In this document: in pieces, positions 24,090 to 31,666 of the stretch | How positions within the stretch are numbered: position 1 is the stretch's first letter | Layout of the letters: every line of letters begins with the position of its first letter | Assembly (NCBI GenBank): GCA_030835825.1 | Contig: JAURRA010000011.1 | Location: 1 to 33,959, forward strand | Origin: Flavobacteriaceae bacterium | GTDB lineage: Bacteria > Bacteroidota > Bacteroidia > Flavobacteriales > Flavobacteriaceae | DNA: 33,959 nucleotides | Direction: 5' to 3' | Notes under the pieces: model-generated | Seen by the model: the letters and a program-made list of their open reading frames with translations, nothing else | The model's database searches: none | Told to the model about the DNA's origin: nothing | Translations under genes and position numbers: made by a program

Positions 24090-25358
24090 ATGAATTTTCA
24101 ATCAAATTTAGAGTACGCAAAACAATTGGACAAACTCGACCAATTGGGTGGATTCAGATCTCAATTTCATCTTCCCACTGATCAGTTTGGAAAACCACAT
24201 TTGTATTTCTGTGGAAATTCATTGGGCCTGCAAACAAAAAACACCAAGTCCTATATCGAAATTGAATTAGAGGACTGGGCTAAATTGGGTGTTGAGGGTC
24301 ATACGGAAGGCACCTTTCCTTGGTTGCATTATCACGAATTTTTAACGGAAGGCATGGCCCAAATTGTTGGAGCAAAGAATCATGAAGTAGTCGTAATGAA
24401 TTCACTCACAGTGAATTTACATCTCATGATGGCCTCTTTTTATCAGCCTACAAAATCTCGATTTAAAATTTTGATCGAAAGTGATGCCTTTCCTTCAGAT
24501 AAATATGCTGTAGAGTCTCAGCTCCGCCATCACCACTTTGACCCCGAAAGTAGTTTGATTCTTTGGTCTCCTAGAGCCGGAGAAGAACTGTTAAATTATG
24601 AGGATTTGGAGCAAATCATGGCCGAGCATGGAGAGGAAATCGCCCTCATTATGATAGGCGGTGTGAATTACTACACTGGACAATATTTTGATCTTAAGAG
24701 AATTAGCACTCTTGGCCACCACTACGGCTGCACTGTAGGATTCGATTGTGCTCATGGCGCTGGAAACGTCGCCCTTAACCTGCACGATAGTGGTGCAGAT
24801 TTTGCCATTTGGTGTACCTATAAATACCTTAACTCTGGACCTGGAAGCTTGAGCGGTTGTTTTGTTCATGAAAGGCACGCCAACAAGCCAAACCTCAATC
24901 GTTTTGCTGGATGGTGGAATCACAACAAAGAGACCCGGTTTAATATGCGTCAACCCTTCGATCAACTCTATGGGGCCGAAGGATGGCAACTGAGCAATCC
25001 TCCCATTCTTTCCATGGCAGCCATTCGCGCTTCTTTGGATATTTTCAAGGCCGCTGGTATGCCAGCTTTAATTGAAAAGTCAAACAAAATGACTGATTAT
25101 TTCGAATTTCTACTCTCGGACTTCAAAGAAGATCGTCTTAAAGTTATTACTCCTAAAAATCAAGATGAAAGAGGATGTCAACTCAGCATTCAAATTAAGA
25201 ACGCCGACAAAACAATTCATGAAAAATTGACTCAAGCTGGCGTGATTTCTGACTGGCGAGAACCCGATGTCATTAGAGTTGCACCAGTACCACTTTACAA
25301 TCGATTCGAAGATATTTATTTAATGGTCGAACTATTAAAACATCTACCCCATGACTAA
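24090..25358 (+). CDS. kynU: kynureninase
   Basis: KynU (422 residues) is a PLP enzyme that cleaves 3-hydroxykynurenine to 3-hydroxyanthranilate and alanine (or kynurenine to anthranilate). Family segments are YFCGNSLGLQ, the substrate region TEGTFPWLHYHE, and GFDCAHGAGNV. The PLP lysine is Lys245 in CTYKYLNSGPG, followed by FAGWWNHN and the C-terminal RVAPVPLYN. With kmo next to it (8-base overlap), 3-hydroxykynurenine is the likely substrate. It is the first gene of the operon. Confidence 0.96.
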   Translation: MNFQSNLEYAKQLDKLDQLGGFRSQFHLPTDQFGKPHLYFCGNSLGLQTKNTKSYIEIELEDWAKLGVEGHTEGTFPWLHYHEFLTEGMAQIVGAKNHEVVVMNSLTVNLHLMMASFYQPTKSRFKILIESDAFPSDKYAVESQLRHHHFDPESSLILWSPRAGEELLNYEDLEQIMAEHGEEIALIMIGGVNYYTGQYFDLKRISTLGHHYGCTVGFDCAHGAGNVALNLHDSGADFAIWCTYKYLNSGPGSLSGCFVHERHANKPNLNRFAGWWNHNKETRFNMRQPFDQLYGAEGWQLSNPPILSMAAIRASLDIFKAAGMPALIEKSNKMTDYFEFLLSDFKEDRLKVITPKNQDERGCQLSIQIKNADKTIHEKLTQAGVISDWREPDVIRVAPVPLYNRFEDIYLMVELLKHLPHD

Positions 25359-26721
25359 ACCTGTGATTATTTTAGGAGCTGGCCTTTGCGGGTCGCTTCT
25401 TGCCGTGAGACTTGCACAAAGAGGACATCAAGTCGAAGTTTATGAGAAACGCGAAGATTTGAGAAAAGTACATTCCGGAGGCGGGAGGTCTATAAACTTA
25501 GCCTTTTCAGATCGCGGCATGAAAGGAATGAAACTTGTGGGACTCGACAATAAAGCTGAGGCCCTGTGTATTCCCATGAATGGTCGCATGCTGCATTCCA
25601 TAAACAACGAGCAGCAGCTAGCACCCTACAGCGGCCGGTCGCACGAATACATCAACTCCATATCCAGAGAGGGCTTAACAGCCTTACTTTTAGATGAGGC
25701 GGAGGCCATGCCCAATGTGCGCCTTTTCTTTAATCACCAATGTGTGTCTGTAGACATTGATAATAAAATAGCCACTTTTGTTGATGACCATTCGAAGGGC
25801 GAAGTTCGCATTGAAGGTGAAGTTATTTTTGGCACAGACGGCGCAGGATCTTCTTTGAGAAAAAGCTATGAAGCTCATCATGACTGCGACATCAAAGTGA
25901 ATCAAGATTTTCTGTCTCATGGTTACAAGGAATTGCACATCCCTCCTACTTCTAACGGCGGATTTAGAACTCATAAAAACGCTTTACATATTTGGCCCAG
26001 AGGAGCCTATATGTGTATTGCCTTACCCAATCTTGACGGCAGCTTTACAGTCACCCTATTTTTGGACCACAATGAGGGTGAATATAATTTTTCTATGCTC
26101 AAAGATCCGGAAGCAATCACACATTTTTTTGAAACAGAATTCAAAGATTTATTTGACTTGATGCCAAATTTGGTTGAAGACTTTTTTCAAAATCCAACAT
26201 CTAATCTAGGAACTATCAAATGTGATCGGTGGTATTACAAAGGAAATACCCTTTTGATGGGCGATGCTGCTCATGCCATTGTTCCTTTCTACGGTCAAGG
26301 CATGAACGCTTCCTTCGAGGATGTTGTAGTCCTCGACGAGGCTTTAGAGTCCTTTGGCGATGACTGGATTAAGGTTTTTGAAAAATATCAAAAAGACCGA
26401 AAAAAAGACACCGATGCCATTGCCGATCTGGCTATTGATAACTTTCATGAAATGAAGGATCATGTTGCCAATCCTATTTTCCGTGAGAAAAGACGAATTG
26501 AAATACAGTTAGAACAAGATTTTCCAGATTTGTATTTTTCAAAATACGCCTTAGTGACCTTCAACGAAAATCTAGGCTATCGAGAAGCCATGCTTCGCGG
26601 CAGAGCTCAAGACAACTTTTTACTAAAAAAAATAGCTGAAAACAGCACCTTGCTCAAAGGAGATAGTAAAGAACTCTTACATGCCGTCAACCAAGCAGGA
26701 ATGCAAGCAATAAACATTTAA
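25351..26721 (+). CDS. kmo: kynurenine 3-monooxygenase
   Basis: This 456-residue FAD monooxygenase hydroxylates kynurenine to 3-hydroxykynurenine with NADPH and O2. The dinucleotide-binding motif GAGLCG is at residues 9-14, [16 protein letters not shown] is the KMO-specific FAD loop, and [21 protein letters not shown] is the second FAD motif. There is no C-terminal membrane helix such as the eukaryotic enzyme has, in line with soluble bacterial KMOs. The C-terminal domain includes [16 protein letters not shown]. Overlap with kynU points to coupled translation. Confidence 0.95.
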
Positions 26722-26735
26722 CTATCTTTAGGACT

Positions 26736-27158
26736 ATGGCAGAGGGAAAAATCATATCAGGTAAGGCTACTCCGAGGGGCGCATATCCACATATCAAGCG
26801 CGTTGGAGATTTTCTATTTGTTTCGGGAACCAGTTCCAGAAAAGCCGATAATACAATAGACGGTGTCGAAATTATTGATGCCATGGGTACCAAGCATTTG
26901 GATATCAAAGCTCAAACCAGAGCAGTTTTAGAAAACATCAAAGACTTTTTATCAGAAGAAGACGCTTCGCTCAGTGATGTGGTGGATGTCACCACCTTTT
27001 TAGTTAACATGAATGATTTCGCTGGATACAACGAAGTTTATGCCTCCTATTTTGACAAAAAAAATGGACCCGCTAGAACAACTGTAGCTGTTCATCAACT
27101 ACCCCATCCCGACTTGGTAATTGAAATTAAAGTTACAGCCTTTAAAAAACAATCCTGA
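26736..27158 (+). CDS. RidA family protein, probable 2-aminomuconate deaminase
   Basis: A 140-residue RidA/YjgF-fold protein with [18 protein letters not shown] near the start, a [12 protein letters not shown] helix and the C-terminal [12 protein letters not shown]. RidA proteins form trimers and hydrolyse imines/enamines. Homologues in 2-nitrobenzoate and tryptophan degradation (NbaF/AmnD type) are 2-aminomuconate deaminases, giving 4-oxalocrotonate and ammonia. Position just before the gene for the enzyme that makes 2-aminomuconate supports that role. The catalytic assignment is by context; generic enamine deaminase activity is the alternative. Confidence 0.82.
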
Positions 27159-28603
27159 TGCGCATTCAAAATCTCATTAATGGTCATTTGGTCGATCCAA
27201 TTGCTGGTCAATGGCTGGACGTCCGCGCTCCTGCCAATGGACAAGTTTATGCAAGTTTGGCCAATTCGGACAAATCGGATGTTGTGCGAGCCGTATCGGC
27301 TGCTGAAAACGCTTTCCCTCAATGGTCAAACACTACCATCACAGAACGCAGTGCCATCTTGATGAAGATAGCCGAAGCCATTGAAGAGAAGCAAGACACC
27401 TTGGCAACAGCAGAGAGCACAGACAACGGCAAACCCTTAACACTTGCAAAGAAAGTCGACATCCCTCGAGCTGCAGAGAACTTTAGGTTTTTTGCGCATG
27501 CCATTACTCAATTTTCAAGTGAAAGCCACGAGAGTATAGGGCTCCATACCATTAACTATACCTTGAGACAACCCATCGGCGTTGTTGGCTGTATTTCACC
27601 ATGGAATTTGCCACTTTATCTTTTTACATGGAAAATCGCCCCTGCACTGGCTGCAGGTAATTGTGTTATTGCAAAGCCAAGTGAAATAACACCAGTTACG
27701 GCCAATATACTGGGGGAGTTGTGTTTAAAAGCAGGACTGCCTAAAGGCGTTTTGAACATTATCAACGGTCGAGGAGACAGCGCTGGACAAGCTATCATAT
27801 CTCACCCGAAAATTAAAGCAATTTCGTTTACTGGAGGCAGCAAAACAGGGGCTCAAATCGCCACCACGGCGGCTCCCATGTTTAAGAAATTATCTCTTGA
27901 ATTGGGTGGTAAAAATCCAAATATCATTTTTGCAGACTGTGACTACAGCACTATGCTAAAAACCACCCTTCGGTCATCGTTTTCAAACCAAGGTCAAATT
28001 TGTCTATGTGGTAGCAGAATTTTTGTTGAACGCACCATTTATGACCAATTTAAAAAGGACTTTGTAAAGGCGGTGACATCGCTGAAAGTGGGAAATCCAG
28101 CAGACTCGGAGACTGATATTGGGGCCTTGGTCAGTCTATCACATTTGAATAAAGTAAAAAGCTATATCGACACAACACCCCAAGAAGGAGGTACCATTCT
28201 TTGTGGAGGGGACGTGTTGAAAATTCCCCATTTGGAAAGTGGTTATTACATCAGTCCGTGCGTGATTGAAGTGACAAGTAATACATGTCGTCTAAATCAA
28301 GAGGAAATTTTTGGCCCCGTGGTTACCCTCATGCCTTTTGACACAGAAGCGGAAGCTCTTGCTATGGCTAACGACGTGCCCTATGGTCTATCTGCTACTG
28401 TTTGGACCAATGATCTGAAACGAAGTATGCGGATGTCGGAAAAACTTGAAAGCGGGATTGTTTGGGTAAATACCTGGATGCAAAGGGATTTGAGAACACC
28501 TTTTGGAGGGGTTAAGGATTCGGGAGTAGGAAGAGAAGGTGGCACAGAAGCCCTTCGTTTTTTCACCGAAGCTAAAAATGTTTGTATAAATTATTCGGAA
28601 TAA
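27158..28603 (+). CDS. 2-aminomuconate 6-semialdehyde dehydrogenase (ALDH superfamily)
   Basis: The 481-residue NAD+-dependent dehydrogenase oxidises 2-aminomuconate semialdehyde to 2-aminomuconate. ALDH features are SPWNLPLYLFTWKIAPALAA (with the conserved Asn), FTGGSKTG for NAD+, LELGGKNPNI (catalytic Glu), the nucleophile Cys282 in GQICLCGSR, and EEIFGPVVT. The PWNLPLY and ICLCGSR variants fit the AMSDH/hydroxymuconic-semialdehyde dehydrogenase group (human ALDH8A1-like), as does the operon. Its ATG overlaps the RidA stop by one base (TGATG), and its stop overlaps the SDR start (TAATG). Confidence 0.92.
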   Translation: MRIQNLINGHLVDPIAGQWLDVRAPANGQVYASLANSDKSDVVRAVSAAENAFPQWSNTTITERSAILMKIAEAIEEKQDTLATAESTDNGKPLTLAKKVDIPRAAENFRFFAHAITQFSSESHESIGLHTINYTLRQPIGVVGCISPWNLPLYLFTWKIAPALAAGNCVIAKPSEITPVTANILGELCLKAGLPKGVLNIINGRGDSAGQAIISHPKIKAISFTGGSKTGAQIATTAAPMFKKLSLELGGKNPNIIFADCDYSTMLKTTLRSSFSNQGQICLCGSRIFVERTIYDQFKKDFVKAVTSLKVGNPADSETDIGALVSLSHLNKVKSYIDTTPQEGGTILCGGDVLKIPHLESGYYISPCVIEVTSNTCRLNQEEIFGPVVTLMPFDTEAEALAMANDVPYGLSATVWTNDLKRSMRMSEKLESGIVWVNTWMQRDLRTPFGGVKDSGVGREGGTEALRFFTEAKNVCINYSE

Positions 28604-29385
28604 TGGACTTAGGATTAAAAGATAAAAGAGCTTTGGTTTGTGGAAGCTCTCAAGGAATTGGCAAAGCCACAGCAATGGCCTTAGCAGCAGAAGGAGTGCG
28701 CGTCACTTTGTTGGCAAGGAATGAGAGCAGTCTGAAGTCTGTAATTGAGGAATTGCCCAACAGCAGTCGCCACAATTATTTGATAGCTGACTTCTCTAAT
28801 CCTGAAGAAGTTAGTCATATTGTGCGACAATATATTGCAGCTCAGGGTGGATTTCACATTCTGGTCAATAATACAGGAGGACCTAAAAGTGGTGCCTTGG
28901 CAGATGCCGAATCAAAGGAGCTAGAAATCGCTTTCAAAATGCATGTGATATGTAATCAAATTTTAGTTCAAGCACTACTTCCATTCATGAAAGAAGCTTG
29001 TTTTGGTAGAATAATCAATATTATTTCTACTTCAGTAAAAGAGCCCATAGAAGGCTTAGGCGTGAGTAACACCATTCGCAACGCAGTAGCCAATTGGAGC
29101 AAGTCGCTGGCTACAGAATTGGCAGTCTTTGGCGTCACAGTGAACAATGTTTTACCGGGCTTTACAGAAACAAAACGTCTGGATAGCATCATTACTGTCA
29201 AAGCCAAAAAAGCCCAAGTAACAGAAGCCGAAATGGCACAAATTATGCGTCACTATGTGCCAGCAAAAAGATTTGGTCGAGCCGAGGAAGTGGCAAGCGC
29301 CATCGCATTTCTATCGAGCGAATCTGCCGCATATATCACTGGAATTAATTTACCCGTTGATGGCGGACGAACAAAAAGTTTGTAA
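28603..29385 (+). CDS. atypical SDR, exact coding extent
   Basis: This entry gives the correct span (ATG 28603 to TAA 29385, 260 residues) for the atypical short-chain dehydrogenase of the kynurenine operon and replaces the longer entry above, whose end runs into the intergenic gap. The start overlaps the stop of the aldehyde dehydrogenase by one base (TAATG); an in-frame start at 28582 would add seven residues and overlap more. Residues 5-40 form the first Rossmann unit, Ser155/Arg159 stand where Tyr/Lys would be, and the C-terminus (GINLPVDGGRTKSL) is the normal SDR end. Confidence 0.9.
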   Translation: MDLGLKDKRALVCGSSQGIGKATAMALAAEGVRVTLLARNESSLKSVIEELPNSSRHNYLIADFSNPEEVSHIVRQYIAAQGGFHILVNNTGGPKSGALADAESKELEIAFKMHVICNQILVQALLPFMKEACFGRIINIISTSVKEPIEGLGVSNTIRNAVANWSKSLATELAVFGVTVNNVLPGFTETKRLDSIITVKAKKAQVTEAEMAQIMRHYVPAKRFGRAEEVASAIAFLSSESAAYITGINLPVDGGRTKSL

Positions 29386-29414: not shown

Positions 29415-29939
29415 ATGAGTCAACTCGTAAGTCCTTTAAATTTCAAGCAGTGGATTGAAGAAAACCGTCATTTATTAAAGCCGCCTGTCGGTAACAAATG
29501 CGTTTGGCCAAACAGAGATTATATAGTTATGGTCGTCGGAGGCCCCAACAGTCGCAAAGACTATCATTACAATGAAACGCCCGAGTTCTTTTACCAAATT
29601 GAGGGTGATATGGTTTTAAAAATCATGAACCAAGGTGTGCCAGAGGAAATTCATATTAAAGAAGGAGATATTTATTTGCTTCCGCCCAAAGTGCCACATT
29701 CTCCCCAACGAGGGGTGGACACCATTGGCTTGGTGATTGAATACCCGAGACTTCACAACGAATTAGATGCGCTAGAATGGTATTGTGAACAATGTCACGA
29801 ACCCCTCTATCGAGAATCTTTCGAATTGAATAATATTGAAAAAGATATGCCTGTAATTTTTGATAAATTTTATTCCGATGCTGATAAACGAAGTTGCAAA
29901 AACTGCCACAGCATCATGGAACCACCAAAAAAATTATAA
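29415..29939 (+). CDS. 3-hydroxyanthranilate 3,4-dioxygenase
   Basis: This 174-residue cupin opens the ring of 3-hydroxyanthranilate to give 2-amino-3-carboxymuconate semialdehyde. The Fe(II) ligands are His51, Glu57 and His95 (YHYNETPEFF, PHSPQRG). Substrate-binding Arg47, Arg99 and Glu110 sit at the same positions as in the characterised bacterial enzyme. The C-terminus has the rubredoxin-like iron site with Cys124/Cys127 and Cys161/Cys164, the prokaryotic form. All key residues are present, so it should be active. It lies 29 bases after the SDR stop and 3 bases before the ACMSD gene. Confidence 0.96.
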   Translation: MSQLVSPLNFKQWIEENRHLLKPPVGNKCVWPNRDYIVMVVGGPNSRKDYHYNETPEFFYQIEGDMVLKIMNQGVPEEIHIKEGDIYLLPPKVPHSPQRGVDTIGLVIEYPRLHNELDALEWYCEQCHEPLYRESFELNNIEKDMPVIFDKFYSDADKRSCKNCHSIMEPPKKL

Positions 29940-29942
29940 TCG

Positions 29943-31025
29943 ATGCATCGCCCTCTGAGAATTAATGGTCATTCCCACCTTTTACCTTACCCCGAAGAAA
30001 TTCCAGACTTTTTAAAGGAGAGGGAGATTTTTTCTGTTGACTCAGATAAAAAATTTATGCTTCAAAAAGACTGGAAAAGACCAGTTACAGACTCCAGTTT
30101 TTTTCTCAATGAAAAGCTGGAATGGATGGATAAATATAAAATCGATCACGCTGTTGTATTAAATTTATCGCAGTTGTATGGCAATGGCCTGACTCTGGAA
30201 GAAATGAAAAAGGCCTTGCGTTTTCAAAACGACTTCAACGCTGGAATACAGGAAAAACACCCCAACAAGTTTACAAGTGGCTTTGTCGTTCACCCAGGGT
30301 ATGTCGATGGGGCATTGTGGGAAATAGAAAGATGTGTGGTGGAAAAAGGCATGCGTTTATTGTGCCTTCCGACTCACTACATGAATACCATTGGTAAATG
30401 GCGCTGCATTTTTGATCCAGAAAATGAGCCGATTTTTGAGTTGGCCAACAAATATAATTTGGCTTTGGAAATTCACCCCTATGATGGAGAAAAATTTATC
30501 CTTCTTGAAAATACATCATGGCGATTCCATTTGATTTGGATGTTGGCGCAATGCGCTGATTCTTATCACTTTTTCACTCTCAATGGCTATCAAGATAAAT
30601 ATCCCAACATGAGGGTGTGCTTTGCGCATGGCGGGCAGCTTGCTCAAATTAATTTGGGCCGGAGAATCCAAGGGTTTGATGGGCGTCCCGATCTATTCGA
30701 AGGCAAGCACCACCCACGACACGCTGTTGGCCATAAAAACATCTTTTTTGATACGCTGGTCCACGACACCGGATCCCTTAAACTGCTTCTTGATAATGCC
30801 TCCTCCAAGCAAGTAGTTATGGGATTAGACGACCCCTATCCCCTAGGTGAAATGGAAAGCGAGTCACAATCTTCTTATCCTGGCAAAATTTTAGATTTAG
30901 CCGTCGAAAGACAACTTGTAACTCCTCAAGAAGTAGATAGTATTTGGAGTGACAATATTCTTCAATGGCTATGCGGTGATGATGAACAGATGAAAAATGC
31001 CATGATCAATAGAATTTTGGGTTAA
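29943..31025 (+). CDS. 2-amino-3-carboxymuconate-6-semialdehyde decarboxylase (ACMSD)
   Basis: The 360-residue amidohydrolase-superfamily enzyme decarboxylates ACMS to 2-aminomuconate semialdehyde, so directing carbon away from quinolinate and NAD. Zn2+ ligands are His10 and His12 (NGHSHLLP), His178 (EIHPYD) and Asp296 (MGLDDPYPLGE); His229 in FAHGG is the expected catalytic base. It is slightly longer than the Pseudomonas enzyme, with an extension after residue 15 that includes the segment around KEREIFSVDSD. Its stop overlaps the O-methyltransferase start by one base (TAATG). Confidence 0.94.
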   Translation: MHRPLRINGHSHLLPYPEEIPDFLKEREIFSVDSDKKFMLQKDWKRPVTDSSFFLNEKLEWMDKYKIDHAVVLNLSQLYGNGLTLEEMKKALRFQNDFNAGIQEKHPNKFTSGFVVHPGYVDGALWEIERCVVEKGMRLLCLPTHYMNTIGKWRCIFDPENEPIFELANKYNLALEIHPYDGEKFILLENTSWRFHLIWMLAQCADSYHFFTLNGYQDKYPNMRVCFAHGGQLAQINLGRRIQGFDGRPDLFEGKHHPRHAVGHKNIFFDTLVHDTGSLKLLLDNASSKQVVMGLDDPYPLGEMESESQSSYPGKILDLAVERQLVTPQEVDSIWSDNILQWLCGDDEQMKNAMINRILG

Positions 31026-31666
31026 TGGATTTCATATCAGAAGAACTGGAGCACTATGCCCTTAGGCATTCACAACAAGAGCCAAAACTTTTAAAAGAAT
31101 TGAGCACTGCTACATTTCAAAAAGTTTTACAACCTAGAATGCTGAGTGGTCATTTACAAGGTCGTTTTCTGAGTATGTTGTCAAAAATGATCAAGCCACA
31201 AAGTATATTAGAAATTGGAACTTTTACGGGTTATTCTGCGCTCTGCCTTGCTGAAGGCCTCCCACAGGATGGCCTGATTCATACCATCGATTGTAACGAA
31301 GAACTTGTAGATTTTCAAAAGTATTATTTTGATAAATCTGACTATAAAGATCAAATAAAACAATATTTGGGGGACGCCAAAGACATCATACCGACCATAG
31401 ATACGCCATTCGATTTGATTTTTATTGATGCTGACAAAAGCAGTTATCCGAGCTATTTTGACCTAGTTATTGACAAACTGAATTCCGGAGGGCTAATCAT
31501 TTCTGATAACGTGCTATGGAGCGGTAAAGTTTTGACGAAAGCCGCGGTGAATGATGAAGACACCAAAGCACTTCAATATTATAATACCATGATTAATGAG
31601 GATTCGAGGGTTGAAGTCGTTTTACTACCTCTGCGAGACGGTTTGTCTATTTGTAGAAAAAAGTGA
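31025..31666 (+). CDS. class I SAM-dependent O-methyltransferase (family 3, COMT/CCoAOMT-like)
   Basis: The 213-residue enzyme has the Rossmann motif LEIGTFTGYSALCLAEGL near residue 61, FIDADKSSY with metal-ligand Asp, and a second metal/acid segment SDNVLWSG. This is the Mg2+-dependent catechol/caffeoyl-CoA methyltransferase family, which methylates vicinal phenolic oxygens. Its one-base start/stop overlap with ACMSD makes it the last gene of the kynurenine operon by layout. In other flavobacteria I recall this gene next to tatA without the kynurenine genes, so it may be an older neighbour. Substrate is unknown. Confidence 0.88.
   Translation: MDFISEELEHYALRHSQQEPKLLKELSTATFQKVLQPRMLSGHLQGRFLSMLSKMIKPQSILEIGTFTGYSALCLAEGLPQDGLIHTIDCNEELVDFQKYYFDKSDYKDQIKQYLGDAKDIIPTIDTPFDLIFIDADKSSYPSYFDLVIDKLNSGGLIISDNVLWSGKVLTKAAVNDEDTKALQYYNTMINEDSRVEVVLLPLRDGLSICRKK

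Follow-up and report, generated by a model that had tools for sequence, protein, structure and literature searches.

A short-chain dehydrogenase/reductase without the YxxxK pair as a candidate reductase toward 2-oxoadipate in the kynurenine operon of a Flavobacteriaceae bacterium

Why does a kynurenine operon contain a short-chain dehydrogenase/reductase (SDR) that lacks the Tyr and Lys residues (YxxxK) of the usual active site? The question is raised by contig JAURRA010000011.1 of a Flavobacteriaceae bacterium (assembly GCA_030835825.1), analysed as a stretch of 33,959 nucleotides that is called the window here; the source genome (G000) comprises 1.62 Mb in 30 contigs and is 95% complete. Between positions 24090 and 31666, the plus strand carries an operon in the order kynureninase, kynurenine 3-monooxygenase (KMO), RidA-family protein, 2-aminomuconate semialdehyde dehydrogenase (AMSDH), SDR, 3-hydroxyanthranilate 3,4-dioxygenase (3HAO), ACMS decarboxylase-like amidohydrolase (ACMSD) and O-methyltransferase. 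The SDR is probably an NADPH-dependent ene-reductase that acts on the C=C bond of 2-oxo-3-hexenedioate (4-oxalocrotonate) and yields 2-oxoadipate. We infer this activity, along with substrate, cofactor, chemistry, product and order relative to RidA, from what is directly established, namely the gene, its conserved motif, the operon, the co-occurrence with the pathway, the exclusion with a decarboxylase/hydratase route and the downstream genes.

The distribution of the gene was followed in 247 evenly sampled genomes of the class, each at least 90% complete, which were searched for five genes. The SDR matched in 175 genomes at an E-value of 1e-40, and six weak matches (E 7e-57 to 1e-40, none accompanied by 3HAO or AMSDH) were dropped, leaving 169; 3HAO was present in 182 genomes, AMSDH in 171 (at 1e-140) and glutaryl-CoA dehydrogenase in 231 (at 1e-110). 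The TIGR03218 family, which represents 2-oxo-3-hexenedioate decarboxylase and is also matched by related hydratases, was found in ten. ACMSD was dropped as a pathway marker in favor of AMSDH, as the ACMSD type of the window reached 1e-60 in only 16 of the 247 genomes. SDR and AMSDH occurred together in 158 genomes, the SDR alone in 11, AMSDH alone in 13 and neither in 65, a co-occurrence beyond chance that a first-pass annotation of the window had named beforehand as a test. Among the 169 genomes with both AMSDH and 3HAO, 158 contain the SDR, nine the TIGR03218 family, none both and two neither, the last two (G115 and G234) being drafts of 180 and 250 contigs. Counted by genus, 94 of the 102 genera with such genomes show the SDR only, seven TIGR03218 only, none a mixture and one neither (Fisher p 4e-10). 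Overall, the SDR was found in 0 of the 10 TIGR03218-family genomes, and this exclusion, together with the co-occurrence, indirectly supports the reductive role toward 2-oxoadipate on which the first-pass annotation had speculated. In two families (f3 and f6), some genomes have the SDR and others TIGR03218, suggesting that the swap occurred more than once.

Glutaryl-CoA dehydrogenase accompanied the SDR in 169 of 169 genomes, as compared to 62 of the 78 others. Incomplete pathways were also seen: AMSDH is present without 3HAO, SDR or TIGR03218 in G093 and G194, and of the 13 genomes with 3HAO and without AMSDH, two contain the SDR, one contains TIGR03218 and ten contain neither. In G017, one of these ten, an SDR fragment is truncated at the end of a contig. 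Outside this sample, 38 of 198 genomes of the phylum matched the SDR at 1e-58, 14 of them beyond the class, at a threshold that is no clean orthologue line, since the same-family genomes G353 and G398 pass it at 42-43% identity. The source genome holds a single SDR of this kind, the next SDR being 30% identical, and it carries glutaryl-CoA dehydrogenase (a query whose best PDB matches are glutaryl-CoA dehydrogenases) as well as the E1 component of 2-oxoglutarate dehydrogenase (OGDH). The decarboxylase route was ruled out there, as the TIGR03218 family gave no match at an E-value of 0.001 in this ~95% complete genome; the earlier statement that the operon offers no alternative to the SDR can thereby be extended to the whole genome.

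The genomes with the other ending indicate where the two routes part. In G223 (locus L081), kynureninase (cut by the end of the fetched stretch), KMO, four lower meta-cleavage genes, RidA, AMSDH, 3HAO and ACMSD are located on one strand, and the class-sample search gave no SDR match in this genome. The four genes encode a 2-oxopent-4-enoate hydratase relative, an acylating acetaldehyde dehydrogenase, a 4-hydroxy-2-oxovalerate aldolase and a 2-oxo-3-hexenedioate decarboxylase relative, and they are placed between KMO and RidA and so do not occupy the exact position of the SDR. Together, the enzymes of these families are known to convert 2-oxo-3-hexenedioate into pyruvate and acetyl-CoA. A decarboxylase-family gene is likewise found inside the kynurenine cluster of G081 (locus L075), which belongs to a different family. 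RidA is retained in the G223 operon and in the G081 cluster, and its presence with both endings places the branch of the pathway after RidA. A single SDR in place of four genes, downstream of an unchanged RidA step, implies that 2-oxo-3-hexenedioate is put to a different use, most obviously the reduction to 2-oxoadipate that is known from mammals. The other nine TIGR03218 genomes have a completeness of 99-100%, and the absence of the SDR from them is therefore no assembly gap.

The active site of the SDR points in the same direction. In an alignment with an SDR paralogue from the same genome (L002), the Tyr and Lys of the latter correspond to Ser155 and Arg159 of the window SDR, as had been read in the first-pass annotation, and Asn90 and Ser142 are retained. 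S155, R159, R192, N90, S142 and Arg39, the last located where the second strand ends, are present in 119 of 119 distinct relatives (sequences from outside the 11 SDR genomes without AMSDH, some of them from named contigs and taken irrespective of pathway genes), K146 and H114 in 118 each and H57 in 115. Given this invariance, S155 and R159 are no chance mutations. The coenzyme glycines G14, G18 and G20 are equally kept in 119 of 119, and the coenzyme motif, which had been described as imperfect, turned out to be nearly normal, with Thr to Cys13 as its sole change. An Arg in the position of Arg39 is known to favor NADPH in SDRs and would favor the same cofactor here; several solved relatives retrieved by Foldseek are NADP(H) complexes. 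The window SDR thus lacks the YxxxK of classical SDRs and possesses the Rossmann fold and the glycine-rich coenzyme motif. Its Pfam matches are adh_short_C2 (1.2e-41) and adh_short (1.1e-35), the latter found in 15 of 15 aligned members. No curated NCBIfam cut-off was reached among the 25 best of 220 matches (top PRK07231, 171 versus 215 bits), and an ordinary annotation was dropped for this reason. The BKR-like subgroup named in the first-pass annotation is a label from CDD.

An AF2 model of the protein shows a normal SDR fold (pLDDT 88.6, pTM 0.89, with the loop 144-146 below 50) and matches SDRs at a TM-score of about 0.9. AerF is its closest solved relative in a profile search of the PDB (E 1.1e-61), followed by Burkholderia and Aeropyrum SDRs, TM1169 and YwfH/BacG (2.7e-47); single-sequence phmmer places 1o5i, 5va8 and AerF level, and Foldseek ranks AerF first (TM 0.93, 35% identity) and YwfH tenth (TM 0.91, 31% identity). 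Both AerF and YwfH/BacG catalyse the reduction of C=C bonds connected to a 2-oxo acid, in YwfH/BacG by conjugate hydride addition. The odd motif of the window SDR fits C=C reduction, as such a reductase can do without a Tyr/Lys pair that relays protons to the oxygen of a carbonyl.

The Ser/Arg pair extends further than the pathway. Outside Bacteroidota, the SDR is matched at 1e-30 by 220 plasmid records, with at most 45% identity among the 25 listed, and in five such plasmid-borne, more distant relatives Ser155 is present in four and Arg159 in all five, H114, H57 and R256 in none. Hence, Ser/Arg marks a subgroup wider than the pathway, to which the pathway-linked clade, judged by these alignments, adds residues of its own. 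Five of the 220 plasmid records were inspected, and no kynurenine genes were seen near the SDR relative in the four that are annotated. On plasmid p-LAD2 of Priestia aryabhattai, the relative (L229, 5001-5786) is flanked by genes of the fumarylacetoacetate hydrolase and dicarboxylate symporter families, one on either side, a setting that hints at a further role of the subgroup in the use of dicarboxylates.

The genes of the operon in the window are as follows.

24090..25358, plus strand: kynureninase (TIGR01814, 449.7 bits, above cut-off)
25351..26721, plus strand: kynurenine 3-monooxygenase (KMO), an FAD monooxygenase; matches FAD monooxygenase families, none above cut-off among the 25 best NCBIfam rows; named from context
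26736..27158, plus strand: RidA/YjgF family protein (PF01042, 5.3e-28), likely 2-aminomuconate deaminase; role from context
27158..28603, plus strand: 2-aminomuconate semialdehyde dehydrogenase (AMSDH; Aldedh, 1.7e-170); top NCBIfam match 2-hydroxymuconic semialdehyde dehydrogenase, under cut-off; named from operon context
28603..29385, plus strand: SDR without YxxxK (Ser155, Arg159), 260 aa from ATG; proposed NADPH-dependent 2-oxo-3-hexenedioate (4-oxalocrotonate) reductase
29415..29939, plus strand: 3-hydroxyanthranilate 3,4-dioxygenase (3HAO; NF009763, 261.6 bits, above cut-off; PF06052)
29943..31025, plus strand: ACMS decarboxylase-like amidohydrolase (ACMSD; PF04909, 4.6e-10), without NCBIfam match; named from context
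31025..31666, plus strand: O-methyltransferase (PF01596, 2.7e-54), last gene of the operon

The stop codon of AMSDH (TAA, 28601-28603) and the start codon of the SDR (ATG, 28603-28605) share one base in the sequence TAATG, an overlap that makes the translational coupling claimed in the first-pass annotation plausible. Linkage was examined in the 80 named loci that ranked best among 587 confirmed matches; they are mostly labelled Flavobacteriaceae and are thus close kin. Within 10 kb of the SDR, these loci contain ACMSD in 76 cases, AMSDH in 71, KMO in 68, kynureninase in 67, RidA in 66, O-methyltransferase in 65 and 3HAO in 55. Among the 29 best SDR matches after the window in the class sample, a pathway gene lies no more than 1.5 kb away in 12, and in match rows 31-70, inspected by eye, the SDR lies within 5 kb of 3HAO in 18 of 39 genomes (one of them without 3HAO and two without a printed 3HAO place). 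As the pathway genes are scattered in the remaining genomes, the co-occurrence is not mere operon hitch-hiking. By gene neighborhood as well as by distribution, the SDR goes with the 3HAO-AMSDH branch.

Several loci depart from the arrangement in the window. In L148, L156, L157, L159, L161, L162, L165, L168, L170, L185-L187, L190 and others, kynureninase, KMO, RidA, AMSDH, SDR and ACMSD are clustered and no 3HAO match was found within 10 kb. Locus L188, on a contig labelled Planctomycetaceae, contains a Flavobacteria-like SDR/AMSDH/ACMSD/RidA cluster and is probably a misbinned contig. In the same-family genome G151 (L072), kynureninase, KMO, a window-type ACMSD (80%) and O-methyltransferase are clustered, and AMSDH and SDR are absent. 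The amidohydrolase near 3HAO in several other pathway genomes is only 24-28% identical to the ACMSD type of the window, and by these identities the pathway may draw on two distinct lineages of ACMSD.

In the proposed sequence of reactions, KMO, kynureninase, 3HAO, ACMSD, AMSDH and RidA would convert kynurenine to 2-oxo-3-hexenedioate (4-oxalocrotonate). The SDR would then transfer a hydride from NADPH onto the conjugated carbon, and collapse of the enolate would give the 2-oxo acid 2-oxoadipate; the Tyr/Lys pair, which serves the carbonyl oxygen in ordinary SDRs, would be dispensable for such a conjugate reduction. A 2-oxoacid dehydrogenase would convert 2-oxoadipate to glutaryl-CoA and glutaryl-CoA dehydrogenase would yield crotonyl-CoA.

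A number of observations weigh against this assignment. Nine of the 169 SDR genomes (15 of 175 if the six dropped weak matches are counted) lack both 3HAO and AMSDH, and KMO was not found at 1e-40 in the seven of these nine that were tested (the same search did find it in G072, G090 and G171). In G102 (L203) and G243 (L109), kynureninase is kept directly beside the SDR, and KMO, 3HAO and AMSDH were not detected in either genome; their SDRs keep the signature residues checked, except position 117 in G102. The draft G171 has 3HAO and KMO, and its SDR lacks His114 (Gln) and has Ala at 117 and 118, for which reason residues 114, 117 and 118 are no essential markers. Glutaryl-CoA dehydrogenase, being present in 231 of the 247 genomes including all ten with TIGR03218, discriminates only weakly, and genome-level p-values overstate independence because the sampled genomes are related. 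On the side of the alternative ending, the completeness of G223 is just 92% and its contamination 4%, the eight TIGR03218 genomes other than G223 and G081 carry the genes of this family apart from those for kynurenine breakdown (overall, 18 of 19 places were inspected), and every TIGR03218 match in the ten genomes is under the curated cut-off. The AMSDH match in these genomes could instead be a 2-hydroxymuconate semialdehyde dehydrogenase; the kynurenine branch is nevertheless likely there, since window-type ACMSD occurs in five of the nine TIGR03218 genomes with AMSDH and two more have AMSDH and 3HAO in one 16-kb stretch (L084 and L085). Finally, VIA-align ties AerF (Z 34.4) and FabG ketoreductases (33.6). 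With this tie, and with the confidence of the AF2 model at its lowest in residues 144-146, next to the active site, structure alone is not decisive, and Z-scores were dropped as a discriminator because they do not separate ene-reductases from ketoreductases.

The nine SDR genomes without 3HAO and AMSDH are only partly explained. In G096, which lacks 3HAO, AMSDH and KMO, the coenzyme motif of the SDR is broken and N90H and R159K are found in an open reading frame, while its congener G021 has the pathway and an intact SDR. The two are neighbors in a tree of the SDR, with end branches of 0.8 versus 0.022; this tree, built from 76 of 136 rows with a quarter of the named loci among them, has long outgroup branches, the order among the exceptions is not firm in it, and its group statistics, which disregard ungrouped rows, were set aside. 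The dN/dS ratio of the G096 copy versus its congener is mildly raised (0.13, as compared to 0.02-0.11 in six other computable pairs, with sites near saturation), and the argument for decay therefore rests on the lost motif residues and the long branch. On these grounds, the G096 SDR looks like a copy that decayed after loss of the pathway. G058, G092 and G121, all of one genus, share K146Y, N118F and H57G, perhaps reflecting a changed function.

Of the other explanations, the closest concerns the order of events: the SDR might reduce 2-aminomuconate, or its imine tautomer, before RidA deaminates the reduced enamine to 2-oxoadipate. The net step is the same, the co-occurrence and exclusion data apply equally, and the proximity of RidA to the SDR in 66 of the 80 named loci makes either order genetically possible. 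RidA is, however, also found in the SDR-less G223 operon and in the G081 cluster, where the decarboxylase family needs 2-oxo-3-hexenedioate, and it is simpler to assume one RidA step, common to both routes, ahead of the branch. Reduction ahead of RidA is thus considered rather unlikely.

Linkage by itself would also fit an auxiliary function of the SDR, in which it would repair some reactive by-product of the pathway, for example a quinone imine of 3-hydroxyanthranilate or a semialdehyde, without carrying carbon flux. Such a role would leave unexplained why the SDR is absent exactly from the genomes with the decarboxylase/hydratase family, in which the upstream intermediates are the same, and it is regarded as highly improbable. 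The loss of the YxxxK pair to S155/R159 could moreover be taken as a sign of a catalytically dead structural or regulatory subunit. Against this stand the conservation of the coenzyme glycines, N90, S142, S155 and R159 in 119 of 119 relatives and of K146 in 118, as well as AerF, which is described as a reductase although its Tyr position is likewise occupied by Ser and the Lys is missing. A dead subunit is accordingly hardly credible, and the pseudo-enzyme reading was dropped on the conservation of S155, R159 and the coenzyme glycines.

The reduction of 2-oxo-3-hexenedioate by the SDR would link a concrete candidate gene to an orphan reduction in tryptophan catabolism (oxalocrotonate reductase, 2-aminomuconate reductase). 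There is a good probability that the SDR clade represents the first gene family for the reductive branch of 3-hydroxyanthranilate catabolism, from 2-oxo-3-hexenedioate or 2-aminomuconate to 2-oxoadipate, and that most kynurenine-degrading Bacteroidota of the class finish the pathway in the mammalian way via glutaryl-CoA, the meta-cleavage ending being rarer; the missing mammalian reductase may then be sought among SDRs without YxxxK. If true, the end of the pathway would be fixed for a large share of the class (SDR, AMSDH and 3HAO in 158 of 247 genomes), and the strict conservation of SDR enzymes without the Tyr/Lys pair would receive a chemical rationale. In the PMC literature, from which most subscription papers are missing, no gene was found named for the mammalian reductive step to 2-oxoadipate, and the term "aminomuconate reductase" was not found. 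Passages of one paper treat the reduction of 2-oxo-3-hexenedioate to 2-oxoadipate as possible and name no gene for it there, and a figure legend of the same paper lists an SDR among syntenic Aspergillus genes (PMC7842363). The RidA/YjgF family includes 2-aminomuconate deaminases, according to a passage in PMC4433059.

Among known systems, the mammalian oxalocrotonate/2-aminomuconate reductase activity achieves the same net reaction to 2-oxoadipate as proposed for the SDR; in a figure legend of PMC12899273, "oxalocrotonate reductase" is given as a step of the human pathway, without a named gene. The DmpH/DmpE-type branch (4-oxalocrotonate decarboxylase and 2-oxopent-4-enoate hydratase), relatives of which reside within the G223 kynurenine operon, starts from the same post-RidA intermediate, but employs another protein family and another chemistry and coexists with the SDR in none of the sampled genomes. 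AerF, described in a title cited in PMC10143770 as an NADPH-dependent C=C reductase, shares with the window SDR the fold, the Ser at the Tyr position and the absence of YxxxK, but differs by an Asn at the Lys position, where the window SDR has Arg, and by its place in secondary metabolism instead of dicarboxylate catabolism. Similarly, the Bacillus subtilis reductase YwfH/BacG (PDB 3u4c/3u49), which converts H2HPP to the H4HPP form in bacilysin biosynthesis according to a passage in PMC9147277, has the SDR fold of the window protein and operates in a different pathway.

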